Shown here in pieces: positions 10,160 to 26,592 of a stretch of DNA of 32,435 bases. The position numbers were made by a program, and so were the translations under genes. The stretch's first letter is position 1, and each line of letters begins with the position of its first letter. Source of the DNA: Flavobacteriales bacterium (GTDB lineage: Bacteria > Bacteroidota > Bacteroidia > Flavobacteriales_E > Vicingaceae); contig CAJPFH010000054.1 of the NCBI GenBank assembly GCA_905339165.1, forward strand, positions 1-32,435, given 5' to 3'. The notes beneath the pieces were generated by a model, which saw only the letters and a program-made list of their open reading frames with translations, had not been told where the DNA came from and ran no database searches.

Positions 10160-11002
10160 ATGGCAAAAAACAACAAGTTAGTAGCACCATTTCTAAAATG
10201 GGTTGGAGGCAAAAGACAGCTTATGCCTTCAATTGTTGAGCATTTGCCTGAAAATATTAAGGACTACAAATATATTGAGCCATTCATTGGTGGCGGAGCG
10301 GTATTATTTAATTTGCAACCTAAGAACGCAATTATTAATGACTTCAACGAAGAGTTAATCAATGTGTATCAGGTCATTAAAAACAATCTTGACGAACTAA
10401 TTACTGACCTTAAAAAACATAAAAACGAAGCTGAATATTTCTATTGGATAAGAAGTTTGGACAGAAATGTCGAGTTTAAAAAACTTTCTGCTGTTCAAAG
10501 AGCGTCAAGAGTAATTTACTTAAATAAAACCTGTTTTAATGGACTTTACAGAGTGAATAATGCAGGTGAATTTAATTCGCCTTTTGGACGCTACAAAAAC
10601 CCAAATATTGTAAATGAACCAACATTAAAAGCTGTAAATAAATTTTTGAATAGTAATAATGTAGACATTAAAAGCGGGGATTATTCTGAAATTTTAAAAC
10701 AAGCAGACAAAAAATGTTTTGTTTATTTAGATCCGCCATATCATCCAATTTCTGAAAGCTCAAACTTTACAGGTTATGTTCAAGGCGGTTGGAATATATA
10801 TGACCAAATTGACCTAAAAACCGCTTGTGACGAACTACATAAAAAAGGAGTAAAATTTTTACTTTCAAATTCATCAGCAGATTTCATCAAAGACTTATAC
10901 AAAGATTATAAAATAACAATAGTAAAAGCCAATAGAGCAATTAACTCAAACGGTGCGGACCGTGGAGAAGTTGATGAAGTTTTAATAAGAAACTATGAGT
11001 AA
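10160..11002 (+). CDS. D12-class DNA adenine N6-methyltransferase (Dam/DpnM-like), type II R-M
   Basis: This 280-residue protein shows the D12 (alpha-class) layout: the AdoMet motif FLKWVGGKRQL at about residues 11-21, EPFIGGGAVLFNL (residues 44-56), a target-recognition stretch with NKTCFNGLYRVN, and the catalytic DPPY at residues 191-194. The family transfers a methyl group from S-adenosylmethionine to the N6 of adenine; members modify sites such as GATC, but specificity cannot be read here. It overlaps the next gene by 8 bases, which codes for a probable restriction enzyme, so it is the protective half of a type II system. ATG 10160 starts nine residues before the FLKWVGG motif, typical for the family. 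Cassette 4 (10041-12415) consists only of this pair, so protection and cutting move together. Confidence 0.9.
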   Translation: MAKNNKLVAPFLKWVGGKRQLMPSIVEHLPENIKDYKYIEPFIGGGAVLFNLQPKNAIINDFNEELINVYQVIKNNLDELITDLKKHKNEAEYFYWIRSLDRNVEFKKLSAVQRASRVIYLNKTCFNGLYRVNNAGEFNSPFGRYKNPNIVNEPTLKAVNKFLNSNNVDIKSGDYSEILKQADKKCFVYLDPPYHPISESSNFTGYVQGGWNIYDQIDLKTACDELHKKGVKFLLSNSSADFIKDLYKDYKITIVKANRAINSNGADRGEVDEVLIRNYE

Positions 11003-12281: not shown

Positions 12282-12289
12282 AAGCCATC

Positions 12290-12421
12290 GCCTAACAAGG
12301 GTTTTGCGATAGTGGGGCGAAACTACAAAATTCAACAGTTGTTCTTCGGGTCAACTTTTGTGCAAAATTAAAGTTTTGTGCTTCGATTACCCCACCATCG
12401 CAAAGCCCCAAACCGTTCTCG
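12290..12421 (+). repeat. attC site 5
   Basis: 132 bp. Left core GCCTAAC (12290-12296), right core GTTCTCG (12415-12421), the only right core that does not begin GTTA. ATCGCCTAA pairs with the cassette 4 start (TTAGGCGAT, 10041), and pairing extends to 13 of 14 positions. Arms GGGTTTTGCGATAGTGGGG and CCCCACCATCGCAAAGCCCC pair. Confidence 0.86.
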
Positions 12422-12565
12422 GAAATCCCTCCGAAGCACAAGCCCAACGCAACGGGCTTTCCGAGAACGGCTGCGAATTTGTGAAGTCCTCGTACAGCCC
12501 TGCGGGACTGTCCGAGAACAACAAATTTGAGAAATTCAAATTTGAACTTCACAAATTCGCAGCCG
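12416..12565 (+). mobile_element. geneless mini-cassette 5
   Basis: 150 bp from T12416 to G12565. Only 46 bases precede its attC core, too short for a gene. Start TTCTCGGAAA and the sequence TTTCCGAGAA before the attC are exact 10-bp complements, the longest such match in the array. It is either a cassette reduced to its recombination site or a spacer that affects transcription; no promoter motif was seen. Confidence 0.75.
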
Positions 12566-12571
12566 TTATGC
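12462..12571 (+). repeat. attC site 6 (atypical)
   Basis: 110 bp. Left core CGAGAAC (12462-12468), right core GTTATGC (12565-12571). The outer arms 12469-12486 and 12547-12564 are perfectly complementary over 18 bp, with none of the extrahelical bases seen in the other sites. A second copy of TCCGAGAAC lies inside at 12511-12519, and a 9-bp inner stem (CAAATTTGA / TCAAATTTG, 12522-12544) forms the tip. It lacks the GTGCTTCG modules and looks like a different lineage or a composite site. Confidence 0.75.
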
Positions 12572-12720
12572 CCAACCGTAGGACGACCATTCTTCGTAGA
12601 CAATGACACAGGTAATTTGACACCGACTGCAAATAAATAACGAGTGGACTTTTGCACAGAGACAGTTCATTGCAATCTTGACACAGACCGACCTTGCCGA
12701 CACGCAAGCCGACCCAAATG

Positions 12721-12761
12721 TTTTAAAAAATTTTGCCCACGCTCATTTAAAAAATAATTTT
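12721..12761 (+). repeat. left AT-rich terminal block of cassette 6
   Basis: Two AT-rich words, TTTTAAAAAATTTTG (12721-12735) and ATTTAAAAAATAATTTT (12745-12761), separated by nine bases. Both occur as exact reverse complements, in mirrored order, at 18385-18399 and 18357-18373. The 32 matching bases cannot be explained by AT-richness alone. Confidence 0.8.
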
Positions 12762-12776
12762 ATCGCAATCACACAT

Positions 12777-12840
12777 TTGGCACATTGCCTTTTGCCGCTA
12801 CCACACAAGCCACCCCAAATGGCAAAAGTCAAAGAGCCAA
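12777..12840 (+). repeat. mismatched hairpin C (left end of cassette 6)
   Basis: Arms 12777-12796 and 12821-12840 pair at 17 of 20 positions. Two of the three mismatches are the A-A pair where CACATT faces AAAGAG, as in hairpins A, B, D and E. The loop contains CACAAGCC-ACCCC, shared in form with hairpins A and E. Confidence 0.75.
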
Positions 12841-12876
12841 GTTTTCCCACCGCTTGATTGTTGATAACTTTTGTTC

Positions 12877-12906
12877 GGACATAATTTGTCCTAATTAAAT
12901 TAGTCC
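12877..12906 (+). promoter_or_regulatory. probable operator of the R-M controller protein
   Basis: GGACATAATTTGTCC (12877-12891) has 5-bp inverted arms, and CTAATTAAATTAG (12891-12903) is a perfect palindrome around a central A. AATTTGTCC and AATTAGTCC (12883-12891 and 12898-12906) also form a 15-base direct repeat. These overlap the -33 box and spacer of the promoter, the usual position for autoregulation by the XRE-type protein encoded just downstream. Confidence 0.55.
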
Positions 12907-12915
12907 TTACATTTG
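12885..12915 (+). promoter_or_regulatory. Bacteroidota sigma-type promoter of the R-M operon
   Basis: TTTG (12885-12888), a spacer of exactly 19 bases, then TACATTTG (12908-12915) match the consensus TTTG-N19-TAnnTTTG. Transcription would start near 12922, about 12 bases before the regulator ATG at 12934. Confidence 0.65.
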
Positions 12916-12933
12916 TTCCAAAATAAATTCGAT

Positions 12934-13254
12934 ATGGCTAAACGAAAAATCTCAACTTTTGGCGAATATATACGCCAACTTCGTGAAAACGCAGGACTAC
13001 CATTAAGAAAAGTTGCGGCTCAATTAGACATTGACCCTTCCATATTGGGAAAAATTGAGCGAAATGATAGACAACCTTCAAAGGAACAGATTAAAAAGCT
13101 TGCAGTAATCTTCGACCAAGACGAGAATTATTTATTATCAGAATATTTGAGTGACCAAATTGCATACAAAGTGTTGGAAGAAGAAAGCAACTTCGACATA
13201 TTGAAAGTAGCGGAGAAAAAAGTTGCTTACTTAAAAACAAAAAAGAATGGCTGA
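12934..13254 (+). CDS. XRE-family HTH regulator of the R-M operon (controller-like)
   Basis: This 106-residue protein has a helix-turn-helix over residues 8-62: FGEYIRQLRENAGLPLRKVAAQLDIDPSILGKIERNDRQPSKEQIKKLA, the classic XRE pattern in which the recognition helix is around DPSILGKIER. The C-terminal part is helical and charged, perhaps for dimerisation. Start ATG 12934 is chosen because an earlier TTG at 12913 lies inside the -7 promoter box. Its stop overlaps the first methyltransferase start by 8 bases. The palindromes over its own promoter suggest autoregulation, as for controller proteins of type II systems, which delay the nuclease until the host DNA is methylated. It is larger than many C proteins, which are around 80 residues. 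Confidence 0.85.
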   Translation: MAKRKISTFGEYIRQLRENAGLPLRKVAAQLDIDPSILGKIERNDRQPSKEQIKKLAVIFDQDENYLLSEYLSDQIAYKVLEEESNFDILKVAEKKVAYLKTKKNG

Positions 13255-14125
13255 AGCATTAACAATAGAAAAAACAGTTAAGACGGTTGACAAAAGAAAC
13301 GACCTGAATGATTTAACATCAACCGAATGGGTTCAGGAAACGAAAAGTTTCTTCTATCAAAAAGGGCTTGGTGCAGGTAGTCCCGAAGCTAAGTATGAGA
13401 AAATGCACCCGGCACCTTTCTCATTTACCGACATAACTAAACTCATTAAGTTTTTTACTAAGAAAGACGGAAAAGTATTAGACCCGTTTTCTGGTGTTGG
13501 CTCAACTATCAAAGCTTGTGTAGAGCTTGAAAGAGAAGGATTCGGGGTTGAATTATCTTCCAGTTGGTGTAAGATTACACAACAAAGACTTTTGGTTGAA
13601 TCAAAGGTGAAATTAGATAAAGAACATCTAATTTGTGGAGACAGTAGAGACCTGAAAAAGTTTTTTCCAAAAAATCACTTTGACTTTATTGTTACTTCTC
13701 CGCCATATTGGAACATCCTTGAAAAGAAAGACCACAAAGCAAACAAAAGAGTTGTTAATGGTCACGAGACTAAATACAGCGAAGATGAAAATGACTTAGG
13801 AAATATTGATGATTACGAAAAATTCTTGACTGAACTTTCAAAAATATTCTTGAGTTGTTATGACCTTTTAAAAGCAGGAAAGTATATGTGTATAATTGTT
13901 AGCGACTTTAGACATAAATCCGAATTTTATTCTTTTCATTCAGACCTTATGTATAAATTGACTGACAAAAAACTAAAGAAACGATTCCATTTAAAAGGAA
14001 TAAAAGTTTTAATTCAAAACGCAAAAAAACTATTTCCTTACGGCTATCCATTTTCTTACGTTGAGAATATCCATCATCAATATGTTTTAATCCTTCAAAA
14101 ACCAAAAGATGAAAGAACTAAATAA
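13247..14125 (+). CDS. DNA methyltransferase with SPPY motif (N4-cytosine or N6-adenine)
   Basis: This 292-residue protein carries the AdoMet-binding motif DPFSGVGST (Asp79) followed later by the catalytic TSPPYWN (residues 150-156). The SPPY form is most common in N4-cytosine enzymes but also occurs in adenine enzymes. An N-terminal part with KMHPAPFSFTDI resembles the substrate-side motif of these enzymes. It overlaps the regulator by 8 bases and the next methyltransferase by 17, so translation is probably coupled. Two different methyltransferases before one nuclease usually mean an asymmetric recognition site, each enzyme protecting one strand. The C-terminal region (IQNAKKLFPYGYPFSYVENIHHQYVLIL) ends on the short strand pair seen at the end of such folds. 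Recognition sequence unknown. Confidence 0.88.
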   Translation: MAEALTIEKTVKTVDKRNDLNDLTSTEWVQETKSFFYQKGLGAGSPEAKYEKMHPAPFSFTDITKLIKFFTKKDGKVLDPFSGVGSTIKACVELEREGFGVELSSSWCKITQQRLLVESKVKLDKEHLICGDSRDLKKFFPKNHFDFIVTSPPYWNILEKKDHKANKRVVNGHETKYSEDENDLGNIDDYEKFLTELSKIFLSCYDLLKAGKYMCIIVSDFRHKSEFYSFHSDLMYKLTDKKLKKRFHLKGIKVLIQNAKKLFPYGYPFSYVENIHHQYVLILQKPKDERTK

Positions 14126-14882
14126 AATTTACCTTCAAGACTGCATAACATTTATGCGAGAATTAGAATCCGAATCGGTGGACTTGATTATTGCTGACCC
14201 ACCCTATAATCTTAAAAAAGATTTCGGGAATAAAAGCGACAATTGGGACAATGTTCAAGATTGGCTTAACTGGAGCAAAGAGTGGATTGATGAAAGCGTT
14301 CGAGTATTAAAACCAAGCGGGAATTTATTTATTTACGGTATTCATCACTACCTGTGTTATATCCAATGTCATCTTTATGAAAAGGATATGCGGTATAGAA
14401 GGCAAATTATTTGGCATTATGAAAATGGTTTTTCAGGATATAAAACATTAAATGCTTTTTACGAACCACTTCTTTGGTTTAGCAAGACTGATGATTTTAC
14501 TTTTCACGAAATCAGAGAACCTTATAAAAGTCAAGATAGAATTAAAAATAAAATCATAAAAAACGGAAAGGTCTGGACACCAAACCCTGACGGACGATTG
14601 GCTGGTGACGTATGGAGTTTCCCAACACTTGCGGGCAAGCGATTTGAAAATGAAAAAGTTGACCATCCAACACAAAAACCCCTTGCCCTTTGCGATAGAA
14701 TCGTAAAACATTTCAGCAATCCTAATGACATTGTTTATATACCTTTTGGAGGGAGTGGCTCGGAATGCGTGAGTAGTAAAACGAATGGCAGAAATTTTTT
14801 AGCTACAGAAATAAATACTGAATACATTGACATAGCAAACCAACGCTTATTTTCAACAATACATTATGATAAGATTGCCTAA
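14109..14882 (+). CDS. beta-class DNA adenine methyltransferase (DPPY)
   Basis: This 257-residue protein has the catalytic motif ADPPYNL (Asp30 to Tyr33) near the N terminus and the AdoMet-binding region near the C terminus. The latter contains the conserved DHPTQKP and IPFGGSGSE (residues 211-219). This order, motif IV before motif I, defines the beta class of N6-adenine/N4-cytosine enzymes. Ile211 stands where many members have Asp in DPFxGSG; the variant IPFxGSGSE is one I remember in related enzymes, so it is not taken as damage. It overlaps both the upstream methyltransferase (17 bases) and the downstream nuclease (17 bases). With the SPPY enzyme it probably methylates the two strands of an asymmetric site. 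Confidence 0.9.
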   Translation: MKELNKIYLQDCITFMRELESESVDLIIADPPYNLKKDFGNKSDNWDNVQDWLNWSKEWIDESVRVLKPSGNLFIYGIHHYLCYIQCHLYEKDMRYRRQIIWHYENGFSGYKTLNAFYEPLLWFSKTDDFTFHEIREPYKSQDRIKNKIIKNGKVWTPNPDGRLAGDVWSFPTLAGKRFENEKVDHPTQKPLALCDRIVKHFSNPNDIVYIPFGGSGSECVSSKTNGRNFLATEINTEYIDIANQRLFSTIHYDKIA

Positions 14883-17133
14883 CCCAAAATCGGATATACA
14901 GGAGTATATCAAAATTATTTCTGTAATAAATGCTTATGTTGAGCAACAGAAATCAACTACTTTTTCTTTTGATGATATTTCAAAAAGTTTAACTCAAATC
15001 GGAAACATTTCGTCTCAAAAAGCTTTTGGTTCAAAGGCAATGGTAGCCAGTTTCAGAGAAGATAAAAGTTTAGATTCCGTTTTCAATCAGTCAAAAGCAT
15101 TATCCGAAGTATTAAGATTATTAGGGCTTATCGTATCAGATGAAAATCAGCATACCTTCAAAATAACAAAGTTTGGAAAATTTGTAGCATCTTATTTGGC
15201 AACTCCAAGAGACGATTTTAAAAACGAAATCCTGAATCTACTCTGTCATTCATTTCTCAATATAAACTACAAGCATCCGCAGATTATTGCCAATGATTCA
15301 TTGACGGTTAAACCCTTTTTAGCGACATTGAGAATATTGCCACTGATTGAAAATTTCATTACCAAAAACGAGTTCAATTATTTCATTTTATCGCTTGAAG
15401 ATGATTCAGACGGAACTCTTAAACAAACCGCAACAGAGATTCTGACATCAAGAGTTACAAAGGATAATTTTCAGAATTACAAAAAGAGAATTTTAAAATC
15501 CAGTAATATTGCCGAGAACACAGCGAGCAATTACACAAGAATACCAATTGCTTTTTTCAAATCTTTTGATTTACTCCAAAAAACAAGTTTGAAAGATGTC
15601 CCTGAATTAAGCGAATATTTAACTGAAACGAATAGATTTATTGACGGAAACAAACCATCAAAAAATACGGAAATATATGTAATAGCCGAACACGGAAAAA
15701 CCGTATTGGCAAATTTCAAAGCATCAATCAATGTTAAGTTCAAAGAAATTGAAGCAGAAGAAAAAGATACAAGAATTTACAAAGCTTTAAAGGCAATAAC
15801 CGATTATTACGACTTAACCGAAACAGCATCAAAATACTTTTCTTCTGTTTTCAAAAAGCTAAAAAAGGAATCCAAATGCTTTTTCTCTTTTCCCTATCAA
15901 ATTTTAAATGGTAACGAGATTCAGGAATTTGAAACACATCTTGAAAAATTGAATCAACAATGCGATTTATTGCTTCTCAATCCATACAGTAGTAAAGATG
16001 AAACCATTGAATTTTATCTTTGGAAAAGCAAAAAGGTAAAAATATCAGCGAGTTTAAATTCATTTCCCACTACAGGACAAACCAAAGGAAAGTTTGGATG
16101 TGTGAATTGCCGACCTGCAAGATGTTATGAATATTCAGAAACTGAATTGCTATGTAACGATACTACGCTACAAGAAATACCCGACAAGAATCCCGCTCAA
16201 GTATGCCCCGTAAGTGCAATAAGTTTTAATAGCAAGTTGTTTCCTGTATTAGATTATGACAAATGTGTGGATTGTGGTATTTGCGTTTCAAGATGCCCAT
16301 ACGGAGTAATAAATTATCAAAACGATATACTTGTTATTAATCAGGAGTTATCCAGGAAAAATTTAACTGTAAAAAAAGCATCTGAATCAGAGGCAATTGA
16401 AATTTACAAGAAATATGAAATTGCTCTTGACTATGTTTTGGATAACCCCTTAATGATTAAAACGCTTGGGAAATTTTTCACGAAAGTTCAGAAGCTCAAA
16501 AAGGACGAGTTTTATCCGCTTGTCCGCAATTTATTCAGAAGTTTAGGACTAAAAGCTAAAGTTGGTAAAAGTGGCGATACTCAATGGAGATATGATGCAA
16601 TTGTTGTTGAACCTTTGGTAATTCCTGCAGAAATAAAATCTCCCACAGAAGATACAGTCATTAATCCAAACTCAATCCGACAAGCAATTGAAAATTCTAT
16701 CACAATTGAAGCCAGTCACAGATTAGTTAAGAAAGGAATGAGTGCAGTTGTTGCCTTGATGTATTCAAATAAAAGAAGTGCAGCAGAAGATATGTTGAAA
16801 GATGCAAACGACTTGCACAATATGCGAATCCTTTTAATTTCAGCAGTTGTCTTGGCATACTTGAACTTCAAAAATCTTCAAAATAAGTTTACAATCAAGG
16901 ATATTGAATTCCTGTTCAAGAATACAATCGGTTCTTTTGATGATTACGCTATAAAAGAATTTTGGATTAACTATTTGGCAAGGCGTGAAGAATTAGAAGC
17001 ATTGGACGGCAGAGCGGAATATTTTGACCTTAAAGACAGCTTGCAAAATCAAAATTTCAAGTTTCAGGATAAATTGAAAAAAGAGGTGGACGTTTTTGAT
17101 GATGTTTTTGAGATGATAAAAGCGAAAAAATGA
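14866..17133 (+). CDS. restriction endonuclease with dicluster ferredoxin-like domain and PD-(D/E)XK core
   Basis: This 755-residue protein is translationally coupled to two methyltransferases, which marks it as the nuclease of the system. Residues 1 to about 390 are helical, with winged-helix-like stretches (for example SEVLRLLGLIVSDENQHTFKITKFGKFVASYL, about residues 80-110) and may bind DNA; this region recalls AlwI/BstNBI-type IIS enzymes, from memory only. Residues 412-480 form a typical two [4Fe-4S] ferredoxin module: Cys412, Cys415, Cys420 and Cys447-Pro, then Cys467, Cys470, Cys473 and Cys477-Pro (YDKCVDCGICVSRCPYGV). After it comes a nuclease signature, Asp577 in RYDAIVVE and Glu589-Ile-Lys591 in PAEIKS. 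Iron-sulfur clusters occur in Cas4/AddB-type nucleases, but a classical ferredoxin dicluster between the DNA-binding part and nuclease is unusual. It may be structural or redox-sensing. The reading frame is intact. Confidence 0.8.
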   Translation: MIRLPNPKSDIQEYIKIISVINAYVEQQKSTTFSFDDISKSLTQIGNISSQKAFGSKAMVASFREDKSLDSVFNQSKALSEVLRLLGLIVSDENQHTFKITKFGKFVASYLATPRDDFKNEILNLLCHSFLNINYKHPQIIANDSLTVKPFLATLRILPLIENFITKNEFNYFILSLEDDSDGTLKQTATEILTSRVTKDNFQNYKKRILKSSNIAENTASNYTRIPIAFFKSFDLLQKTSLKDVPELSEYLTETNRFIDGNKPSKNTEIYVIAEHGKTVLANFKASINVKFKEIEAEEKDTRIYKALKAITDYYDLTETASKYFSSVFKKLKKESKCFFSFPYQILNGNEIQEFETHLEKLNQQCDLLLLNPYSSKDETIEFYLWKSKKVKISASLNSFPTTGQTKGKFGCVNCRPARCYEYSETELLCNDTTLQEIPDKNPAQVCPVSAISFNSKLFPVLDYDKCVDCGICVSRCPYGVINYQNDILVINQELSRKNLTVKKASESEAIEIYKKYEIALDYVLDNPLMIKTLGKFFTKVQKLKKDEFYPLVRNLFRSLGLKAKVGKSGDTQWRYDAIVVEPLVIPAEIKSPTEDTVINPNSIRQAIENSITIEASHRLVKKGMSAVVALMYSNKRSAAEDMLKDANDLHNMRILLISAVVLAYLNFKNLQNKFTIKDIEFLFKNTIGSFDDYAIKEFWINYLARREELEALDGRAEYFDLKDSLQNQNFKFQDKLKKEVDVFDDVFEMIKAKK

Positions 17134-18494: not shown

Positions 18495-18627
18495 GCATAA
18501 CACGGGTTTGGCAAAAGTGGCGGTGCAGTGCTTCGTAGGACAGTTTTGTGGGTATATTAACTTTAGTTCTTCGTATGAAAGTTAGTGCTGAAAATCGCCA
18601 CCTTCGCCAAGCCCGAAACCGTTAGCT
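18495..18627 (+). repeat. attC site 7
   Basis: 133 bp. Left core GCATAAC (18495-18501), right core GTTAGCT (18621-18627). GGGCATAA complements the start of cassette 6 (TTATGCCC, 12566). Arms GGGTTTGGC/GCCAAGCCC and AAAGTGGCGG/CGCCACCTTC pair. AGTGCTTCG and AGTTCTTCG modules lie in the centre. Confidence 0.88.
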
Positions 18628-18678
18628 GCAACCATAAACAGACGACAGAACAAATGAAATAAACAGGAAAAATAAATA

Positions 18679-18764
18679 TCACCCTCGGACGATTGGTTGA
18701 GTCGCCTACCTTCAAAGACATTTAAGATAAAGTAGGAAAAGTTGGTTCGATTCCAACAGGGTGA
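18679..18764 (+). tRNA. tRNA-like element with a 22-nt anticodon loop (cassette 7)
   Basis: The acceptor stem TCACCCT / AGGGTGA is perfect over 7 bp (18679-18685, 18758-18764). The D arm is GAC-GATTGGTTGA-GTC and includes the conserved GG. The T arm GTTGG-TTCGATT-CCAAC is canonical (18741-18757), and the variable region is AAAA. The anticodon stem CCTAC / GTAGG (18705-18709, 18732-18736) encloses 22 bases instead of 7. If its first seven (CTTCAAA) were the normal loop, the anticodon would be TCA with about 15 extra bases. Position 8 is C instead of T, and no CCA is encoded. So this is a tRNA-derived or tRNA-mimicking element, not an ordinary tRNA. Its 3' end abuts a HEPN-motif gene. Alternatives are a decayed tRNA or a structured leader. 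Confidence 0.6.
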
Positions 18765-18778
18765 CAAATAAAAAAAGA

Positions 18779-19612
18779 ATGTTAGAACTTAATTGGTCAG
18801 GACACTTAAATCACTTCAAGAGCTTAATCGGACAAACTAACCATTATCTGATTACAATTCTCGTTGGACTTGAAGGTGTAAGGACGGGCAAAGTAACCAA
18901 AGACGAAACCTTTAATGTGACTTGGAACCCAAAGTCAGTTGAAGAATCAGCAGTTCGTAGCAGACGTTTTGCAAGAAATTCAGCTCTTTCTTGGGCAATA
19001 GATTCGCTTGACGCTTATTTGGGTTATTTAAGAAAAAAACCTTTTGAGTTTTCTGACCACCAACTAATCAAGGTGTTTTCAGAACGTTCAATTTATAAAT
19101 CCCTTAAAGAAGTAACCCGATTTTGCAATTATCAGACAGACTTACCACTCTCAATAATTCATTTGGGAATACAGTGGAGAAACAATTTGGTTCATTTTCA
19201 CGCAGACAATGAACTTGAACCCGAATACAGAAAATTTCTTTTAGAGTATGACCAGACAAAAGTTGCAGAGAGATTTAGGGGATTAGATGGGAACTTAATG
19301 GTAAATAATTTTGACGAGAGAAATTCACCAACACTCAAAGAAGTTGCAGCAATTATACAGTGTATTCATTTTGTTGTTTTAGAGCTTGACAAGGTTTTAA
19401 TTCAAAATGTGAACTTAGAAGATTATATAAAACAACTAATTGCCGACAACGACCTTGAATACAAAAACATAATGGCAGCCAGTCCAGACAAACGACTTAA
19501 AAAATTTCAGCAATTCTTAATTACTAAAGGATTTAAGGAAACAAACGGAGCGACTTCAACCAACATATTGACAGACGAAAAAATAGAAAAACTAATGAAT
19601 GGCAGCAGCTAA
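18779..19612 (+). CDS. HEPN-motif protein, candidate ribonuclease (cassette 7)
   Basis: From ATG 18779 this is a 277-residue helical protein. WRNNLVHFHA near residue 134 contains R-N-x3-H (Arg134-Asn-Asn-Leu-Val-His139), the catalytic motif of HEPN RNases, set in a helix after SIIHLGIQ as in HEPN folds. HEPN proteins are RNA-cleaving toxins and defence effectors; several known ones cut or modify tRNA. Upstream, 15 bases away, is a tRNA-like element. A GTG start at 18761 would add six residues but lies inside that element's acceptor stem, so ATG is preferred. The stop codon TAA is formed by the attC 8 core (AGCTAAC), so gene and recombination site overlap. No antitoxin protein gene is present in the cassette. 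Function as an RNase is inferred from one motif. Confidence 0.7.
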   Translation: MLELNWSGHLNHFKSLIGQTNHYLITILVGLEGVRTGKVTKDETFNVTWNPKSVEESAVRSRRFARNSALSWAIDSLDAYLGYLRKKPFEFSDHQLIKVFSERSIYKSLKEVTRFCNYQTDLPLSIIHLGIQWRNNLVHFHADNELEPEYRKFLLEYDQTKVAERFRGLDGNLMVNNFDERNSPTLKEVAAIIQCIHFVVLELDKVLIQNVNLEDYIKQLIADNDLEYKNIMAASPDKRLKKFQQFLITKGFKETNGATSTNILTDEKIEKLMNGSS

Positions 19613-19738
19613 CAGGCGTTTGGCAAAAAAGCGGGTTCAGTGCTTAATTGAAGCTCTGTGCTTCGAATCAAGTTTAGTGCTGAAAGAAAGTTTAGTGCTT
19701 CGAAATCCGCTTCTTCGCCAAGCGCCAAAACGTTAGGC
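19607..19738 (+). repeat. attC site 8
   Basis: 132 bp. Left core AGCTAAC (19607-19613), right core GTTAGGC (19732-19738). GCAGCTAA complements the cassette 7 start (TTAGCTGC, 18622). The core supplies the stop codon of the upstream gene. The centre has several GTGCTTCG-type modules and an AATTGAAGC...TCGAATCAAGTT inner stem. Confidence 0.88.
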
Positions 19739-19763
19739 ACAATTATAAAACAGACGAATTACA

Positions 19764-20642
19764 ATGGCAAAAAAACAACAACCAATAGTTGTCGACCAAA
19801 CACCGACAGAATTAACTACTCCTAAAGAAGAATTCAATAGAATATTGGACGAAAGAATTGCAATTGGTGACGAAATATTTAATAGACAAATAACCACTCA
19901 AGAGGCTTTTAAAACCAATCGTGAGGACTTCTCCAATTGGAATGACTACAATTCAGAATATTTAAAGCATGCTTTCAATAAGGAGTACAATGAATACAAA
20001 AAAAGATATGATGATGCTGGCTCATTTTCCTTCGGCTTCATAGGTGGTCGAACATCTCCTGCGCAAGAACTTAAAGAGTTTAAAGACAAAGTCAACTACA
20101 AATTAGATAATCTAAAAAAGCTCAGAGCGAAGACAGATTTACTTAAGTCGACAGTCGAAGAAAAATATGCAGTAGCAGAAAAATCAATGCCATTGGACAA
20201 ATCACAAGTATTTATTGTTCACGGACATGACGATGAAGCAAAAACCAAAACAGCACGCTTTATTGAAAAATTAGGTTTAAAACCGATTATACTTCATGAA
20301 CAAGCAAGTGGAAGTAAAACTGTAATTGAAAAAATTGAAGCATATTCTAATGTAGGCTTTGGAATTGTGCTTTACACACCATGCGACATCGGTGCAAAAA
20401 ATGAAGAAAAACCTAATTTGAAAAATCGAGCAAGACAAAATGTTGTTTTTGAACACGGTTTTTTAATTGGCAAAATAGGAAGAGAAAATGTTTGCGCATT
20501 AGTTAAAGACGAAATTGAAACACCAAATGATATATCTGGGGTTGTTTATGTAAAAATGGATAATGAGGATGCTTGGCATCTCAAAATTGCCCGAGAGCTT
20601 AGAAATTCAGGTTATGAGATTGATATGAATAAAGTAATTTAA
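19764..20642 (+). CDS. TIR-like nucleotide-binding/NADase domain defence protein (cassette 8)
   Basis: This 292-residue protein has a helical N-terminal half (residues 1 to about 140, with the family-typical FGFIGG near 90-95). The C-terminal TIR-like domain runs from residue 147: QVFIVHGHDDEAK at the start, GFGIVLYTPCDIG in the middle, and RARQNVVFEHGFLIGKIG, where Glu230 is the candidate catalytic glutamate. The domain matches the group described as predicted nucleotide-binding proteins with a TIR-like fold (PF10137-like). TIR domains of bacterial defence systems usually degrade NAD+ on phage infection. It begins 31 bases after the cassette start, so it probably relies on upstream transcription. 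A membrane-anchored protein follows 5 bases after its stop, suggesting a two-gene system. Confidence 0.83.
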   Translation: MAKKQQPIVVDQTPTELTTPKEEFNRILDERIAIGDEIFNRQITTQEAFKTNREDFSNWNDYNSEYLKHAFNKEYNEYKKRYDDAGSFSFGFIGGRTSPAQELKEFKDKVNYKLDNLKKLRAKTDLLKSTVEEKYAVAEKSMPLDKSQVFIVHGHDDEAKTKTARFIEKLGLKPIILHEQASGSKTVIEKIEAYSNVGFGIVLYTPCDIGAKNEEKPNLKNRARQNVVFEHGFLIGKIGRENVCALVKDEIETPNDISGVVYVKMDNEDAWHLKIARELRNSGYEIDMNKVI

Positions 20643-20647
20643 AAAAA

Positions 20648-21349
20648 TTGGAAAAGTTTGACTGGACATATATCGCTGCGCTTTTAAGTGTTGCTTTTGG
20701 TTGGTTCTTAAATGAGCTTGGTCAGTGGTTTAGAACACGTAAAGAAGATAGGAAAATAAAAAAGCAAGTTTTATTCTATCTTTTGGAAACACATTTCACA
20801 TTCAACAAACTTGACACAAGCGAAATAACAAATCTTCTTTCACAAAAGGTTTTAGAACGAATCCCTAAAAACGAACAGACTGATGAAGCAAAGCAATTTA
20901 TTAATCAACTCTATGCTGGAATAATTGGAGGTTTTGTTGAAGATAATGTTGCTGAATCACTTGAAGAAACGGAAGAACATTATACAAAATCAATTAACGA
21001 ACTTTCAAAACTTGACCCAATTACAGCCTACCGATTGAATGGTAAGAATAAAATATTTCAAGTATTTGACTTACTGCATGACTATTATGATGAAGTCAAA
21101 GAAACTTTTCCAAACGAACCAGGACTAAATGAACAAATTGAATTGACCGTTGAAACAATTAAACCGGAAATAATTAAAGATGCAATTTCCGATTTGGAGG
21201 ACGAAATAAGGGGTATTGCTTTTTCTATTAATCTTTGGACTTGGTATCGTGCAAGAAAGACCGTAAACAACACAAAGACAAAGATACGCAAGGACGATGA
21301 AAAGAAAATAGACGAATTGTTGAACATGGTAATGCCCAAAATGACATAA
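20648..21349 (+). CDS. membrane-anchored helical protein paired with the TIR gene
   Basis: This 233-residue protein starts at TTG 20648, 5 bases after the TIR gene stop; no nearer ATG keeps the N-terminal hydrophobic segment (about residues 7-23, TYIAALLSVAFGWFLNEL). A basic stretch (RTRKEDRKIKKQ) follows, which places the rest in the cytoplasm, and then a long acidic helical region. No domain is recognised. The tight spacing to the TIR gene, in a cassette of only these two genes (19733-21481), suggests a partner, such as a membrane sensor or regulator of the TIR enzyme. This is inference from context. Its architecture resembles the cassette 1 protein in having one N-terminal anchor and a helical tail. 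Confidence 0.7.
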   Translation: MEKFDWTYIAALLSVAFGWFLNELGQWFRTRKEDRKIKKQVLFYLLETHFTFNKLDTSEITNLLSQKVLERIPKNEQTDEAKQFINQLYAGIIGGFVEDNVAESLEETEEHYTKSINELSKLDPITAYRLNGKNKIFQVFDLLHDYYDEVKETFPNEPGLNEQIELTVETIKPEIIKDAISDLEDEIRGIAFSINLWTWYRARKTVNNTKTKIRKDDEKKIDELLNMVMPKMT

Positions 21350-21356
21350 TAACTGT

Positions 21357-21487
21357 GCCTAACACGGGTTTTGCGTTAGTGGGCGGACAGTGCGAATAGA
21401 AGCTTTTGAGCAATTAATAAACGTTAGTGCTGGTAGACAGTTTACGGTTTCAATAGCCCACCAACGCAAAGCCCGAAACCGTTATGG
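21357..21487 (+). repeat. attC site 9
   Basis: 131 bp. Left core GCCTAAC (21357-21363), right core GTTATGG (21481-21487). The cores do not match each other, but GTGCCTAA matches the cassette 8 start (TTAGGCAC, 19733) as complement. Arms GGGTTTTGCGTTAGTGGGC and GCCCACCAACGCAAAGCCC pair strongly. Confidence 0.88.
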
Positions 21488-21526
21488 GTAATGGTAGAAC
21501 AACGCCACAACAAACATAGTAGGACA

Positions 21527-22009
21527 ATGAAACATATCTTAATCTTAACACTTCTGATAATTACCAACTTTACTTTCGGACAGTCAAATTCGGAAAAAGA
21601 CACCTTGACAACTAATCCAAATTACGACAAAGCATTAGCCGATAAATTAGGGGGAGACGATTACGGAATGAAAAGTTACTTTTTGGTCATTCTGAAAACA
21701 GGAAAAAGCACAACTACTAACAAAGAGTTTATCAGCAAAAGTTTCAGGGGACATCTTGACAACATAAACCTCTTAGTAGAAGAAGGAAAATTAATCGTAG
21801 CGGGACCTTTAGGGAAAAATGCGAACAATTACAGAGGTATTTTCATATTGAGTAACATAAAATCATTAGAAGATGCAGTAAAATTGTTGCAAACTGACCC
21901 AGCCATAAAGAACGAATTGTTGGATTACGAAATTTTTACTTGGTACGGTTCGGCTGCATTACCAGAATACTTGCCTTTTTCCGACAAAATATGGAAATCC
22001 AAACCTTAA
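21527..22009 (+). CDS. secreted YciI-like protein (cassette 9)
   Basis: From ATG 21527 this 160-residue protein has a signal peptide (MKHILILTLLIITNFTFGQ), so the earlier ATG 21491 is rejected. The mature part has a YciI-like ferredoxin-fold domain: YFLVILKTG, then HLDNINLLVEEGKLIVAGPLG, RGIFILSNIKSLEDAVKLL and a final YEIFTWYG strand. YciI family members are small dimeric proteins with a conserved His-Asp site, usually intracellular; an exported version is a variant seen in Bacteroidota. Enzymatic activity is unknown. It lies 5 bases upstream of a DUF4287/DUF5655-like gene in the same cassette. Confidence 0.8.
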   Translation: MKHILILTLLIITNFTFGQSNSEKDTLTTNPNYDKALADKLGGDDYGMKSYFLVILKTGKSTTTNKEFISKSFRGHLDNINLLVEEGKLIVAGPLGKNANNYRGIFILSNIKSLEDAVKLLQTDPAIKNELLDYEIFTWYGSAALPEYLPFSDKIWKSKP

Positions 22010-22014
22010 AAAAA

Positions 22015-22566
22015 ATGGACAAAGTAACACAAACAATGGTTGAAAACCTGCTCAAGAACACAGGTAAAACTTTGGAACAATGGATTGAGATTGTGAAGAA
22101 ACAGAACTTTGTAAAACACGGAGAAATTGTAAAATTCTTAAAAGAAAAACACGAATTTACACACGGATTTGCCAACCTTGTTGCCCATAAAACCAAAGAA
22201 ACAGACGCAGGTTCGGCAGAAAATACGGATGACTTAATAACTAAACAGTATGTAGGAAAAGAACATTTCAAACCGATTTACGACAAACTAATCTCAGAAA
22301 TTCAGGGCTTCGGGAATGACATCGAAATCGCACCCAAAAACGCTTATGTGAGTTTAAGACGGAAAAAGCAATTTGCAACATTAAACCCTGCAACAAAGAC
22401 CCGTTTTGAAATTGGTATTAATCTAAAAGGACAAGAACCGAAAGGAAAATTAGAACCAGAAAAACCAAACGCAATGTGTTCTCATAAAATTAATCTTACT
22501 GACCTTAAAGACATAGACAACGAAGTAATTGAATGGATAAAAACTGCCTACAACAATGCAGGATAA
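22015..22566 (+). CDS. DUF4287/DUF5655-like protein
   Basis: From ATG 22015 this is a 183-residue cytoplasmic protein. Residues 1-60 (MDKVTQTMVENLLKNTGKTLEQWIEIV through KHEFTHGFANLVAHKT) fit the helical DUF4287 pattern. Residues about 75-180 (HFKPIYDKLISEIQGFGNDIEIAPKNAYVSLRRKKQFATLNPATKTRFEIGI) fit DUF5655, a small alpha/beta domain whose basic surface suggests nucleic acid binding. These names come from memory. The start is the first ATG after the upstream stop; an upstream extension would overlap the YciI-like gene out of frame. The cassette (21482-22704) seems metabolic or stress-related rather than defensive. Function unknown. Confidence 0.78.
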   Translation: MDKVTQTMVENLLKNTGKTLEQWIEIVKKQNFVKHGEIVKFLKEKHEFTHGFANLVAHKTKETDAGSAENTDDLITKQYVGKEHFKPIYDKLISEIQGFGNDIEIAPKNAYVSLRRKKQFATLNPATKTRFEIGINLKGQEPKGKLEPEKPNAMCSHKINLTDLKDIDNEVIEWIKTAYNNAG

Positions 22567-22578
22567 AAGAACCACTAC

Positions 22579-22710
22579 CCATAACATGGTATTGCCAAAA
22601 TGGCGGCAGAAGTGCTACTATGAAACATTTGTGCTAAATTCAACGGTAGTAATTCTATTGAACTTTAGTGCTAATAATCCGCCACTTCGGCAATACCCAA
22701 AGCGTTATGC
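22579..22710 (+). repeat. attC site 10
   Basis: 132 bp. Left core CCATAAC (22579-22585), right core GTTATGC (22704-22710). TACCCATAA complements the cassette 9 start (TTATGGGTA, 21482). The centre is nearly the same as in attC 11 (GTGCTACTATGAAACATTTGT), showing close kinship of the two sites. Confidence 0.87.
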
Positions 22711-22753
22711 GGCAGCTTAAAAGACAACAACCAACGACATTGACAGTAAGAAA

Positions 22754-23353
22754 ATGAAATCAGATAATAAACTTGCAGGACTTGGACTTTTGACAGCAAT
22801 TTCGGCATCACTATGCTGCATTACACCTGTTTTGGCTCTGTTGGCTGGAACAAGTGGACTTGCTTCTACTTTCTCTTGGCTTGACCCATTCAGACCATAT
22901 TTAATTGGCTTGACAGTTTTGGTTCTTGCGTTTGCTTGGTATCAAAAACTGAAACCTCAAAAACAAATTGACTGCTGCGACACAACTGAAAAAACACCCT
23001 TTATTCAGACAAAAAAGTTTTTGGGTTTCGTAACAGTTTTTGCAGGACTGATGCTTGCGTTTCCAAGTTATGTCCACATATTCTTTCCAAAGACAGAAAG
23101 TCAAACAATCATAACCGACCAATCAAACATTAAAACAGCAGAATTTACAATTAACGGAATGACTTGTGCAGGTTGTGAAGAAAACGTAAATCACGAAGTA
23201 AATAAACTGACAGGAATAATTAAGACGAATGTTTCTTACGACAACGGCAACGCAATCATAGAATTTGATAGAACTCAAACCGACATTCAAGAGATAGAAA
23301 AAGCCATAACTAAAACAGGCTATTCCGTAACCGACAAAAAAGAAATAAAATGA
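22754..23353 (+). CDS. merTP: MerTP: mercuric transporter fused to an HMA domain (cassette 10)
   Basis: This 199-residue protein joins MerT-like membrane helices to a MerP-like domain. Helix 1 contains the vicinal Cys21-Cys22 (SLCCITP) that carry Hg(II) in MerT; helices 2 and 3 lie at about residues 45-63 and 88-110, with a second Cys pair (DCCD, residues 74-75) between them. The C-terminal HMA domain begins near residue 128 and has GMTCAGC (Cys138, Cys141). MerTP proteins import mercuric ions, normally for reduction by MerA. No merA or merR is in this cassette, so import alone would be harmful unless a reductase is elsewhere. The next gene overlaps by 4 bases (ATGA). Confidence 0.88.
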   Translation: MKSDNKLAGLGLLTAISASLCCITPVLALLAGTSGLASTFSWLDPFRPYLIGLTVLVLAFAWYQKLKPQKQIDCCDTTEKTPFIQTKKFLGFVTVFAGLMLAFPSYVHIFFPKTESQTIITDQSNIKTAEFTINGMTCAGCEENVNHEVNKLTGIIKTNVSYDNGNAIIEFDRTQTDIQEIEKAITKTGYSVTDKKEIK

Positions 23354-23556
23354 ACATAATCCTGCAATCAACTATCACTTGCCCTGAATGTGGACATAAG
23401 AAAGAAGAAACTATGCCGACAGACGCTTGCCAATATTTTTACGAGTGCGAAAGCTGCAAAAAGGTATTAAAGCCAAAACAGGGCGACTGTTGTGTATTTT
23501 GTAGCTATGGAACAGTGAAATGTCCATCCATTCAAGCCGGGACAAATTGCTGTTAA
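23350..23556 (+). CDS. GDCCVxC-motif small cysteine-rich protein
   Basis: This 68-residue protein has twelve cysteines. It carries CPEC near the N terminus, CESC in the middle, and the signature GDCCVFC (residues 45-51) that names the GDCCVxC family, then CPS and a terminal CC. The arrangement suggests zinc-ribbon-like folding and binding of mercury or another soft metal. These proteins are usually encoded next to merT or merTP genes in Bacteroidota, as here. ATGA overlap with merTP implies coupled translation. It may receive mercury from the transporter or act as a buffer; the exact role is not known. Confidence 0.87.
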   Translation: MNIILQSTITCPECGHKKEETMPTDACQYFYECESCKKVLKPKQGDCCVFCSYGTVKCPSIQAGTNCC

Positions 23557-23593
23557 AGACAATGATAAAACTGACTGAAATCGAAAGCCGACC

Positions 23594-23725
23594 GCATAAC
23601 ATCGGTTTTGCAATATGGCGGGTGAAGTGCTACTATGAAACATTTGTGCAAGATTCAACATCAGTAATTCTATTGAACTTTTGTGCTAAAATGCCGCCAC
23701 ATCGCAAAGCCGAGAACCGTTATGC
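23594..23725 (+). repeat. attC site 11
   Basis: 132 bp. Left core GCATAAC (23594-23600), right core GTTATGC (23719-23725). CCGCATAA complements the cassette 10 start (TTATGCGG, 22705). The start of cassette 11 is the same TTATGCGGCA, so cassettes 10 and 11 share a core type. The arms GGTTTTGCAATATGGCGG and CCGCCACATCGCAAAGCC pair. Confidence 0.87.
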
Positions 23726-23749
23726 GGCATGCTAAATGAGTGAATTCAT

Positions 23750-24619
23750 ATGACAACAATAGAGAAAAAAATAAAAGACAAATACGAACATGCCGACAAT
23801 CTAATCGACTTAATCAGAGAATTTCAATTGGAGAACGTTATAAATCAAGCCATACATCAAATTGAATTGAAACTGACAGGTGGAAAAATAACAGACTTAC
23901 CTAAATTATCTGGGATAATCCTCAACGACATCAATTCATATGTTTCCAAAATAACTGACACAGAAAAAAAGAAGCAGATTGAATACCTTTTAGGAGACAT
24001 CTTTCAGGACTATTTGACCGAGATACTTCAAAGTAAAAACTCCGAAAGTGTCCTAACCGAAATACAGGCAAACATACAGGCCGCCTGTGAGTATAGAGGA
24101 TATGACTATGAAAAACTTTCATCATTCTTGAATATCGAAAAGAAACAAATTTTATTACCAAAACAAAATCAAAGAAGTATTTACTATGACTGGAATGGCG
24201 AATTGCAGGAGTTGGATGAACTTGCGCGAGATATATGTGACATGAGATTGATACTTTCAGTTAAAGAGTTTAAAAAATTATTTAAACCCGTATCAGGCCA
24301 TTTATCAGTAAAATGTTACCGAGAAAACATCGATAAATTATTAATTCTGTTTCAGGTCTTAAAAGAATCATGTTTAATAACGCCCAAGGGGAAAGGTAAT
24401 AGCGGACATTTTGCACCATTTGTTCAATATTCTGTGGACAAGGACGGAAATTTTTTGATCGAAAAGTCCGCAAATAAAGAGCATGAAAAACTAAAAAGAA
24501 ATGCATCTAGATACGACAAATTACACAAGAAAATGGAGTCTGTTGTTAAAGCAAACGCTGGTAAGTCTATGCGACAACGGAAGGACAACGGTGATTGTCC
24601 ACCAGTTAAGGGTAAGTAA
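23750..24619 (+). CDS. unknown protein, possibly RteC-like in its C-terminal half (cassette 11)
   Basis: This 289-residue soluble protein is mostly helical. The region IYYDWNGELQELDELARDICDMRLILSVKEFKKLFKPVSG (about residues 143-182) resembles the C-terminal part of RteC-type regulators and related Bacteroidota proteins, where a W-x-G strand-turn and an EFxxLF helix recur. The match is weak and from memory. The C-terminal tail is strongly basic and may be disordered or bind nucleic acid (residues 240-289). It is followed by an LRAT-like gene within 40 bases, the only other gene of cassette 11. Codon use looks like the surrounding cassettes. Function is unknown. Confidence 0.65.
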   Translation: MTTIEKKIKDKYEHADNLIDLIREFQLENVINQAIHQIELKLTGGKITDLPKLSGIILNDINSYVSKITDTEKKKQIEYLLGDIFQDYLTEILQSKNSESVLTEIQANIQAACEYRGYDYEKLSSFLNIEKKQILLPKQNQRSIYYDWNGELQELDELARDICDMRLILSVKEFKKLFKPVSGHLSVKCYRENIDKLLILFQVLKESCLITPKGKGNSGHFAPFVQYSVDKDGNFLIEKSANKEHEKLKRNASRYDKLHKKMESVVKANAGKSMRQRKDNGDCPPVKGK

Positions 24620-24657
24620 CCTTTCTAAATTTGATGCATAAACTTAAATTTATTAAA

Positions 24658-25164
24658 ATGACACTTACACAATTTATTCAGGTTAACAACCTGCAACAAG
24701 CAGACGCAATCGTCTTGAGAAAAAAATTATTAGGCATGGTAGACCATTTTGCAATATTTTTGGGCTATCGGGGAAATCATCCTGTATTTGTTGCAAATTA
24801 CAGGGACGGTGTTAAGGAAGTCTCTGTTTCAGAAATGAGACAACTTTTGCAAACACTTGAACCAACACAAATCGACCGGTTTCCTGGACCAGAGCATCAA
24901 AGAAAGTCAGCCGTTAGAAGAGCAATTTCCAGAATTGGAGAAAGGGCTTATAGCTACATTTTCAATAATTGTGAACATTTTAAAACGTGGGTACACTACG
25001 GAGAGAATCGCAGTAAACAAGTTGATACCGCAGGAAATGTTGCACTTGGAATTGGTGCAGGAACAGCAATTGCCGCCATTGCGACAAAGAACCCCAAAGT
25101 AGGAGCTGTAGCATTAGGGCTTTTGTTGCTCGGAGCTATTTTAAAAGATGCCGCAGACGAATGA
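24658..25164 (+). CDS. LRAT/NlpC-P60-like cysteine acyltransferase or hydrolase with hydrophobic C-tail
   Basis: From ATG 24658 this is a 168-residue protein (TTG 24631 or ATG 24634 would extend it; the LRAT fold does not need these residues). It has the LRAT triad: His30 in MVDHFAIFLGY, His41 in GNHPVFV, and Cys105 in the signature NNCEHF. The spacing matches the H-rev107/LRAT group of thiol acyltransferases and phospholipases. Residues about 125-160 (TAGNVALGIGAGTAIAAIA to VALGLLLLGA) form a glycine/alanine-rich hydrophobic segment, which would anchor the protein to the membrane. The anchored layout is like that of eukaryotic family members acting on phospholipids, so a lipid substrate is inferred. 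A role as an effector with the upstream protein is possible. Confidence 0.78.
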   Translation: MTLTQFIQVNNLQQADAIVLRKKLLGMVDHFAIFLGYRGNHPVFVANYRDGVKEVSVSEMRQLLQTLEPTQIDRFPGPEHQRKSAVRRAISRIGERAYSYIFNNCEHFKTWVHYGENRSKQVDTAGNVALGIGAGTAIAAIATKNPKVGAVALGLLLLGAILKDAADE

Positions 25165-25174
25165 AAGCACGACC

Positions 25175-25306
25175 GCATAACAGCACCTACCCAAAAGTGG
25201 CGGTTCAGTGGTTCAATCAAGCTTTGTGCTTCTATCAAAGTTTCTGCTTGGTTGACAGTTAAGTGCTTCGAAATCGCCACCTTCGGGTAGCTGCAAACCG
25301 TTACCA
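25175..25306 (+). repeat. attC site 12
   Basis: 132 bp. Left core GCATAAC (25175-25181), right core GTTACCA (25300-25306). CCGCATAA complements the cassette 11 start (TTATGCGG, 23720). The arms AGCACCTACCC and GGGTAGCTGC, AAAGTGGCGG and CGCCACCTTC pair. It differs from attC 13 at about eight positions by eye outside the terminal cores. Confidence 0.88.
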
Positions 25307-25447
25307 GCAAGCGTAGAGAACGACACGACAACAAGAAAACGAACGACAAAAACAGAAAAAGTAAACCATTTTGACAGGTGACCAAGGACATAGAAACGAT
25401 ACAACAAACGGACAGCGAGTAAGCCGACACTCATTGCCGACCCTTCT

Positions 25448-25680: not shown

Positions 25681-26592
25681 ATGGATTTTAAACCGAGCAT
25701 AAGCGAAAAATTCTTAGACCTCTTTTACAAAGAGATTGAATGTGATGTGCCTGATACTAATTCAAAACTCAACTTGCATATTCTTAAAATTGAGAATAAC
25801 CAGTTTTGTTATGAGGAGCTAATTGAGCATTTGGGTGAAAGCATGATACCATTTGCTTTATCAAGAAAACAAATAAAAGAATTTGAAAAGGATAAACGTT
25901 GGCATGGTTTAGTAAAGGAGGCTTCGAGAAAGTTTAGAGATTATAATGTTAATGATGGTGAAGCGGGCGAATTACTGCTATTTTGTTTTCTTGAAGCACA
26001 TCTAAAAGCACCTAAAATTCTCACAAAACTAGAAATCAAACTTTCGTCAAACGACTATGCAAAAGGTTCGGACGGTATTCATTTGCTTGAATTGGCTCCT
26101 AAAAACTATCAACTGATTTTCGGAGAATCGAAACTATATCAAGAACTAACAACTTCCCTATCGAAAGCATTTGAATCAATTCATGATTTTAGAACAAGGA
26201 AAAAGAATAACATCCATGATGAGATTGGTTTAATCAACTCTCAACTATGCAAGGAGGCATTTGATGAAGATTTATATCAGTTTCTAAAATCAGTAATTAT
26301 ACCCAAGGCAAGTGATACTGACCCAATTGTAAAGAACAATGCCTTTGCCATTTTCGCAGGTTTTGAGATTGACCCAACGGATGATGAAAAGCGTTTGACC
26401 AACGATAAGTTTCTGGCATTGATAAAATCACAAATTAAGGAAGAGGTTGAACGCAAAATGAACCATATCAAAAAGAAGATTGAAGAATACGAGCTATACA
26501 GCTATACTTTTTACGTTTATGTTTTCCCGTTCATGAAACTGGATGAAACAAGAAAAGAAATCATCAAGAAAATAACACGAACAGAAGAATGA
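25681..26592 (+). CDS. hamA: HamA (DUF1837) nuclease of the Hachiman defence system
   Basis: This 303-residue protein has the DUF1837 pattern: KEASRKFRDYNVNDGEAGELLLFCFLEA (about residues 80-107), then a PD-(D/E)XK-like site with Asp in YAKGSDGIHLLE and Glu-Ser-Lys in IFGESKLYQ. The C-terminal helices contain long charged repeats (KSQIKEEVERKMNHIKKKIEEYE). HamA is the nuclease subunit of Hachiman; with the helicase HamB it destroys DNA after sensing damaged or phage DNA. It overlaps hamB by 4 bases (ATGA), the usual order hamA-hamB. ATG 25681 starts the conserved region. No strong promoter consensus was found in the 380-base leader. Confidence 0.87.
   Translation: MDFKPSISEKFLDLFYKEIECDVPDTNSKLNLHILKIENNQFCYEELIEHLGESMIPFALSRKQIKEFEKDKRWHGLVKEASRKFRDYNVNDGEAGELLLFCFLEAHLKAPKILTKLEIKLSSNDYAKGSDGIHLLELAPKNYQLIFGESKLYQELTTSLSKAFESIHDFRTRKKNNIHDEIGLINSQLCKEAFDEDLYQFLKSVIIPKASDTDPIVKNNAFAIFAGFEIDPTDDEKRLTNDKFLALIKSQIKEEVERKMNHIKKKIEEYELYSYTFYVYVFPFMKLDETRKEIIKKITRTEE

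Follow-up and report, generated by a model that had tools for sequence, protein, structure and literature searches.

What is a transfer RNA (tRNA) look-alike with a swollen anticodon loop doing immediately before the gene of a probable ribonuclease (RNase)? The question is raised by a stretch of 32,435 nucleotides (nt) from a Flavobacteriales bacterium (GenBank assembly GCA_905339165.1, contig CAJPFH010000054.1; the whole stretch is called the window below), in which a tRNA-like RNA (18679..18765, plus strand) is followed, after a 13-nt leader that separates the RNA 3' end from the start codon (18766..18778, plus strand), by the gene of a protein of predicted HEPN fold, a probable RNase of 277 amino acids (aa) (18779..19612, plus strand, ATG at 18779). 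An earlier note, made from the letters of this DNA, had suggested that the RNA could be an antitoxin, decoy or sensor for the HEPN enzyme, with a balance that infection changes, and that processing at the RNA 3' end would release the HEPN mRNA; these three steps are still inferences. Comparison with homologues from at least eight phyla now points to the pair as an undescribed RNA-plus-enzyme unit of defence or toxin-antitoxin type.

A cloverleaf with an expanded anticodon loop

Taken alone, the window element is only modestly convincing as a tRNA-like RNA. Its acceptor stem is paired at 7 of 7 positions (UCACCCU, 18679-18685, with AGGGUGA, 18758-18764), its D arm is a 3-base-pair (bp) stem (GAC/GUC) with GG in the loop, its T arm has a 5-bp stem (GUUGG-UUCGAUU-CCAAC), its discriminator base is C, and an anticodon stem of 5 bp (CCUAC/GUAGG, 18705-18709 and 18732-18736) closes a 22-nt loop, CUUCAAAGACAUUUAAGAUAAA (18710..18731, plus strand). 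The earlier note had placed the element and the gene correctly, and its perfect acceptor stem, canonical T arm and 22-nt loop are all borne out; it did not mention that positions 34-36 of the loop are UCA (18712-18714), which reads the stop codon UGA. Its description of the arms as tRNA-like is upheld by strong covariation among homologues but not by tRNA finders, as ARAGORN called no tRNA on the element and an Rfam scan of the window gave zero matches at gathering score. The top match in a relaxed Rfam scan of the element (E <= 10) is tRNA-Sec, at 26.9 bits and E 0.0093; a selenocysteine tRNA was ruled out, since the element's 7/5 acceptor/T geometry and its short variable region are at odds with one and the match leans on the CUUCAAA loop. 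The folding z-score of the element is -1.64, and covariance model R1 gives it 68.0 bits, a score for a sequence that is part of the R1 training set. What lifts the element above chance is the presence of an equivalent upstream of every homologue, together with the covariation.

An alignment of 43 elements carries this second point. The cloverleaf pairs 87.8% of cells, versus 61.1% after shuffling and 34-44% after sliding, and double changes are found at 25 of its 26 base pairs. With a canonical tRNA the family shares the cloverleaf, the T-loop UUCRA, the D-loop GG, the 7-bp acceptor and the 5-bp T stem, and NCCA is encoded in 9 of the 43, features that are consistent with tRNA-like maturation. 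The difference lies in the anticodon loop, which spans 20-38 nt in all aligned elements rather than 7. Within it a fifth helix covaries at 5 of 5 pairs, so that the "loop" of most members is an internal loop with an apical hairpin, a hairpin that the 22-nt loop of the window lacks. An ordinary tRNA overlooked by the finders is ruled out by the conservation of this long loop and its inner hairpin, an arrangement that also argues against normal decoding, as judged from the aligned sequences.

The loop opens with a nearly invariant motif, CUUYA. It starts with CUU in 42 of 43 elements, position 36 is A in all 43, and position 35 is a pyrimidine in 40 (binomial p 3e-9 against one half, with shared descent ignored). 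Positions 34-36 are accordingly stop anticodons in 40 of 43 (UCA in 20, UUA in 19, CUA in 1), the remainder being UAA (2) and UGA (1). On the protein tree, position 35 shows 12 changes or more, just three of which cross between purine and pyrimidine, and ARAGORN independently calls two of the relatives (L026 and L039) "tRNA-Stop". Pairing of CUUYA with the 3' UUUAAA flank was considered and rejected; it is possible in 84-95% of cells, never covaries, and is favoured by folding in only 2 of 43.

The neighbouring protein and the constancy of the pair

The R-N-x3-H motif that the earlier note had seen in the neighbouring gene lies in the stretch W133-H139 (WRNNLVH; codons at 19175..19195, plus strand), and W133, R134, N135 and H139 are unchanged across 39 aligned homologues, which matches the R-x4-6-H motif of HEPN proteins with a polar residue after the arginine. 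The AlphaFold2 model is all-alpha (predicted local distance difference test 93.1, predicted template modelling score 0.89) and sets the motif at the end of helix 122-138. In a VIA structure comparison the first three ranks are HepT toxins (5yep, Z 8.6, 131 of 133 residues; 7bxo, 8.5; 7ae6, 8.3), all spanning nearly the whole target, and the HEPN protein 4nqf follows at Z 6.9, although values under about 13 may arise by chance for helical bundles. The toxin SO_3166 (5yep) stops growth, and the R, N and H of its RNIAVH motif, of the same RNx3H form, are required (PMC4621449). Foldseek with the same model returned nothing at E <= 0.001. The HEPN fold implied by the earlier note is favoured by the invariant motif and the top VIA ranks, and is tentative in view of the Foldseek outcome and the height of the VIA Z-scores. 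Neither Pfam, NCBIfam nor PADLOC has a family matching the window protein, Pfam gives no confident HEPN match on the 39 members, and a viral fold library gave no significant match. The protein is probably a HEPN RNase; the motif is observed, and the activity is what motif and model would predict.

Relatives of this protein were hard to find. Single-sequence peptide pattern scans returned nothing in genome contigs, viral contigs or phages, and neither 100 relatives nor 395 class genomes, searched at the protein level, gave anything beyond the window protein; the family opened up only with the shared motif G-x-x-N-H-x-x-I-T-x-L-V-G used as a DNA pattern. That scan recovered 4 of 4 true members in viral contigs and, in species genomes, 58 stretches with about 40 true homologues. 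Two distant homologues came from tblastn against plasmids, in Sinorhizobium americanum (36%) and Pseudoalteromonas (30%, in two reading frames), and two further ones from a search of viral contigs. A profile search in which the motif was not used found a homologue, a diverged member, in one other genome among 394 Bacteroidota, and the family is therefore rare; copy number is one in each of nine homologue genomes searched. There are 48 homologues with readable upstream DNA, at 26-54% identity in the alignment, and their tree intermixes the phyla, with the closest relative of the window protein in Elusimicrobiota (54% identity).

A tRNA-like element with an expanded anticodon loop lies directly upstream in all 48, a count that includes three near-copies (L005, L029 and L066); the elements were located by two custom scans and hand inspection. 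The earlier note had suggested looking for the same pair elsewhere, with homologues lacking the element as the observation that would speak against it, and no such homologue was found. At 17 loci with a chance match to the DNA pattern the element is absent (0/17). Both plasmid homologues have it immediately upstream, that of Sinorhizobium clearing the Rfam tRNA cut-off (52.6 bits, 26-nt loop), and the diverged Bacteroidota member and L029 are likewise preceded by one. Outside its training set R1 scores L035 at 62.9, L044 at 56.4, L070 at 50.2 and L119 at 76.7 bits, the last being the element upstream of L029 and a near-copy of a training member. At L035 both partners are damaged, the gene by truncation and the RNA in its T arm. 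R1 is too unspecific for finding stray elements, as ordinary 72-nt tRNAs reach 60 bits, and the RNA may therefore also occur where the gene is missing. In another Bacteroidota genome, a long extended anticodon arm is seen on a tRNA-like gene that stands without a HEPN gene (L100 1902-1993, or G106:C47:4901-4992, minus strand) and is followed by a second tRNA-like gene with a D-arm insertion.

The two partners also appear to be linked in spacing and descent. Between the last base of the RNA and the start codon lie 1-22 nt (median 12; 15 nt or less in 25 of 42), often fewer than the upstream footprint of a ribosome covers, and so short a distance makes coupling of RNA folding or processing with HEPN translation likely. 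Distances among the RNAs follow those among the proteins (Mantel r 0.66, 0/5000 permutations), the correlation by arm being highest for the anticodon arm (0.57). Taken with the phylum-mixing tree, this indicates a pair that is inherited together and has also been transferred between phyla. Among 20 neighbours in 15 homologue loci there is no recurrent third gene; those that could be named include HsdM, GmrSD, an Eco57I-type methylase, two phage integrases and two DEAD/ResIII helicases. On the Sinorhizobium plasmid (L002 5432-8534) two genes come after the unit, one for another annotated HEPN-domain protein and one for a RES NAD+ phosphorylase.

Candidate roles for the RNA

An RNA first, an RNase gene next and nothing else, in a unit that is mobile, rare and patchy, is the anatomy of an RNA-regulated toxin or abortive-infection unit. 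Several HEPN toxins, such as PrrC and RloC, attack tRNAs, and for an RNA that copies a tRNA, substrate mimicry is thus the simplest account. With moderate confidence, the RNA can be taken to mimic a tRNA and so to serve the HEPN RNase as antitoxin or decoy, acting by analogy with type III toxin-antitoxin systems or AbiF. The cassette would then encode two components, the probable HEPN ribonuclease and, from the same transcript, a tRNA mimic that restrains it. The mimic would mature as a tRNA does and bind the protein as an unproductive substrate, because it has a tRNA-like fold and an enlarged loop that prevents normal use; this loop and the stop anticodon would help to exclude it from sense-codon translation. 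Disturbance of host RNA synthesis or tRNA metabolism, for instance by a phage, would remove the mimic, change it or displace it by competition; once released, the nuclease would cut RNA, with tRNA the likeliest target, and growth would stop. The folded, uncleaved mimic probably also limits HEPN translation on the shared transcript, since the start codon abuts the acceptor strand.

By this analogy the unit most likely functions like type III toxin-antitoxin and AbiF systems yet belongs to neither, because it has no tandem repeats, usually no terminator, and a different protein family and RNA. In Clostridioides difficile the HEPN toxin AbiF is bound and neutralised by a non-coding RNA encoded upstream (PMC12373285). 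The AbiF/Abi_2 toxins with their abiF RNA (RF03085) resemble the present pair in having a HEPN toxin with an RxxxxH-type motif, encoded just downstream of a non-coding RNA. The two differ in that none of the 39 members has an Abi_2 match in Pfam at E <= 0.1, and in that the RNA here is a full cloverleaf whereas the abiF motif is 37 nt. RF03085 has no match in the window at gathering score and is not among the matches listed from the relaxed scan of the element (E <= 10), and at the Sinorhizobium locus the only abiF match is antisense, inside the gene, at 20.3 bits (cut-off 37). Type III systems (ToxIN, CptIN, TenpIN) likewise encode an RNA directly upstream of an endoribonuclease gene, and the RNA here is proposed to neutralise its neighbour as theirs do. 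In those systems the RNA consists of pseudoknots in tandem repeat with a terminator after them, and the toxins have a different fold (PMC5086642); the present protein has no Pfam or NCBIfam toxin match, and its predicted fold is HEPN-like rather than that of ToxN, CptN or TenpN. In Neobacillus (L044 7630-7760) the acceptor stem reaches about 13 bp and a run of U comes after it; this RNA may thus carry an intrinsic terminator of its own, in a form resembling the type III terminator between RNA and toxin.

Two further comparisons concern the protein and the RNA separately. The closest solved folds are those of HEPN-MNT systems (HepT; SO_3166, 5yep, 7bxo and 7ae6), which share the RNx3H active motif; the difference is that the partner here is an RNA, and identity is about 10%. 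No MNT nucleotidyltransferase was found in the flanking cassette genes or among the 20 neighbours of homologues. Allo-tRNAs and irregular bacterial tRNAs are also RNAs of odd structure on mobile DNA, for which a toxin-antitoxin link was once suggested (PMC7609411), but theirs are acceptor branches of 8/4 or 9/3, and in the RNA here the branch is 7/5, the abnormality sits in the anticodon arm and the protein partner is constant. Pfam, NCBIfam, PADLOC and Rfam include neither the protein nor the RNA family, and no description of the pair was found in literature in which subscription journals are thinly covered. Cas13 has its roots in HEPN nucleases restrained by small RNAs. If the antitoxin account is true, the pair would be a second RNA-plus-HEPN design, unrelated to the first, its RNA imitating the probable target in fold and mimicry by RNA controlling a nuclease; it would also explain elements that tRNA finders miss or label as odd "stop" tRNAs, and offer a compact mobile unit for engineering.

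Several observations weigh against the antitoxin account, beginning with the doubts over the fold that come from the Foldseek result and the VIA Z-scores. Unlike type III systems, the window and the homologues have a single RNA copy with no tandem repeats, and there is usually no terminator between RNA and gene, as gaps of 1-22 nt leave no room for a Rho-independent one; a terminator-like form is seen only in Neobacillus. The most diverged elements (L003 and L070) depart from CUUYA, and housekeeping genes are also among the neighbours of homologues. At L003, L016 and L116 (L028) the HEPN gene is frameshifted near residues 115-125 while the upstream RNA is intact, which could fit the loss of a toxin and equally could reflect assembly errors or something programmed. 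A programmed frameshift was considered for L003, L016 and L028, where the breaks fall near the same place; the direction of the shift differs in L028 and no slippery site was seen, and these were treated as broken genes.

It is possible, though unlikely, that the RNA is a sensor and not merely an inhibitor. RNA and protein would then form a standing complex in which the mimic is bait for enzymes of an invader (phage anticodon nucleases, tRNA ligases or modification enzymes), and cleavage or change of the loop would activate the bound HEPN protein. The near invariance of the exposed CUUYA while the stems vary freely suits such a guard, as do the lack of any other visible sensor gene and the presence of homologues on mobile elements and beside restriction genes; many lineages, however, lie far from the mobile or defence genes sampled. 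The proximity of the RNA to the start codon, always in cis and within 15 nt in 25 of 42 cases, suggests instead that the element is a leader, a switch in processing or translation of the HEPN mRNA that is cut by RNase P, RNase Z or the HEPN protein and sets toxin synthesis with no role in trans. At such distances the ribosome site overlaps the acceptor strand. A leader of this kind would not need the full set of tRNA-like features (T-loop UUCRA, D-loop GG and the details of the anticodon arm) that is kept across phyla, and this explanation seems rather improbable.

The stop anticodons raise the more unusual idea of a suppressor tRNA held inactive by an intron-like insert after about position 37, the usual intron position, where the HEPN protein or a host enzyme would cut; this is doubtful on present evidence. 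Ligation would yield a 7-nt loop, C-U-U-Y-A-A/G-A, with a stop anticodon, and in a challenged cell the RNA might license nonsense suppression as a conditional suppressor, or make the nuclease alternate between protecting its own tRNA and destroying other tRNAs. The pattern at positions 34-36, the restraint on position 35 and the two "tRNA-Stop" calls fit this idea, and the loop ends in R-A in nearly all rows. On the other side, the UAA and UGA elements and the diverged L070 violate the stop rule, a ligase gene was not found among the neighbours scanned, the stop codon of the gene itself shows no significant match to the anticodon (Fisher p 0.07), and CUUYA could instead be a protein-binding motif. 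If true, an interrupted suppressor tRNA would be new in kind, a tRNA-based molecular switch without a known bacterial counterpart. Finally, tRNA genes are common integration sites and integrases lie near two homologues, so that a degenerate tRNA might have come to rest beside an unrelated gene by integration into a tRNA gene. The probability of this is close to nil, and it was ruled out on the 48 of 48 co-occurrence with fixed order and spacing, the covariation and the correlated divergence.

The cassette and its surroundings

The RNA and the gene at 18779-19612 are enclosed by two attC-like repeats and would thus form one integron-type cassette, extending over about 18622-19732. The upstream border (18498..18630; TAAC...GTTAGC) carries the direct-repeat families D1 and D3 and an R''/L''/L'/R' box pattern, from which its probable nature as an attC recombination site is read; the downstream border (19610..19740) carries families D1, D3 and D5, and its long inverted arms gave a spurious mir-3926 match. 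Besides the HEPN gene there is no open reading frame of 80 aa or more in the cassette, in line with the earlier statement that it contains nothing else. A search of the genome gave no integron integrase scoring above the family cut-off, and the array therefore looks like an attC cluster without an integrase, or the assembly is incomplete.

The attC-like repeats form a series in the window at 18498-25330 (starts at 18498, 19610, 21360, 22582, 23597 and 25178) that parts successive cassettes of this Bacteroidota genome. The cassette genes flanking the HEPN unit are one protein with no match and one CAP12/PCTIR protein with a TIR domain (19764-20642; PF10137, E 1.5e-39), an effector fold of Pycsar/CBASS type, which stands alone or with an unknown membrane protein at 20648-21349. 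Further upstream, at 10160-17133, is a probable restriction-modification cluster of a Dam-like methylase and a DUF6996/6997/7226 protein, after which come a helix-turn-helix gene, two genes resembling DNA methylases and one for a protein of 755 aa that has a 4Fe-4S motif. At 25681-31998, four successive genes (one unknown, then helicase-like, ATPase-like and HNH-like) resemble further defence modules that, judged by eye, are possibly Hachiman-like and Septu-like.
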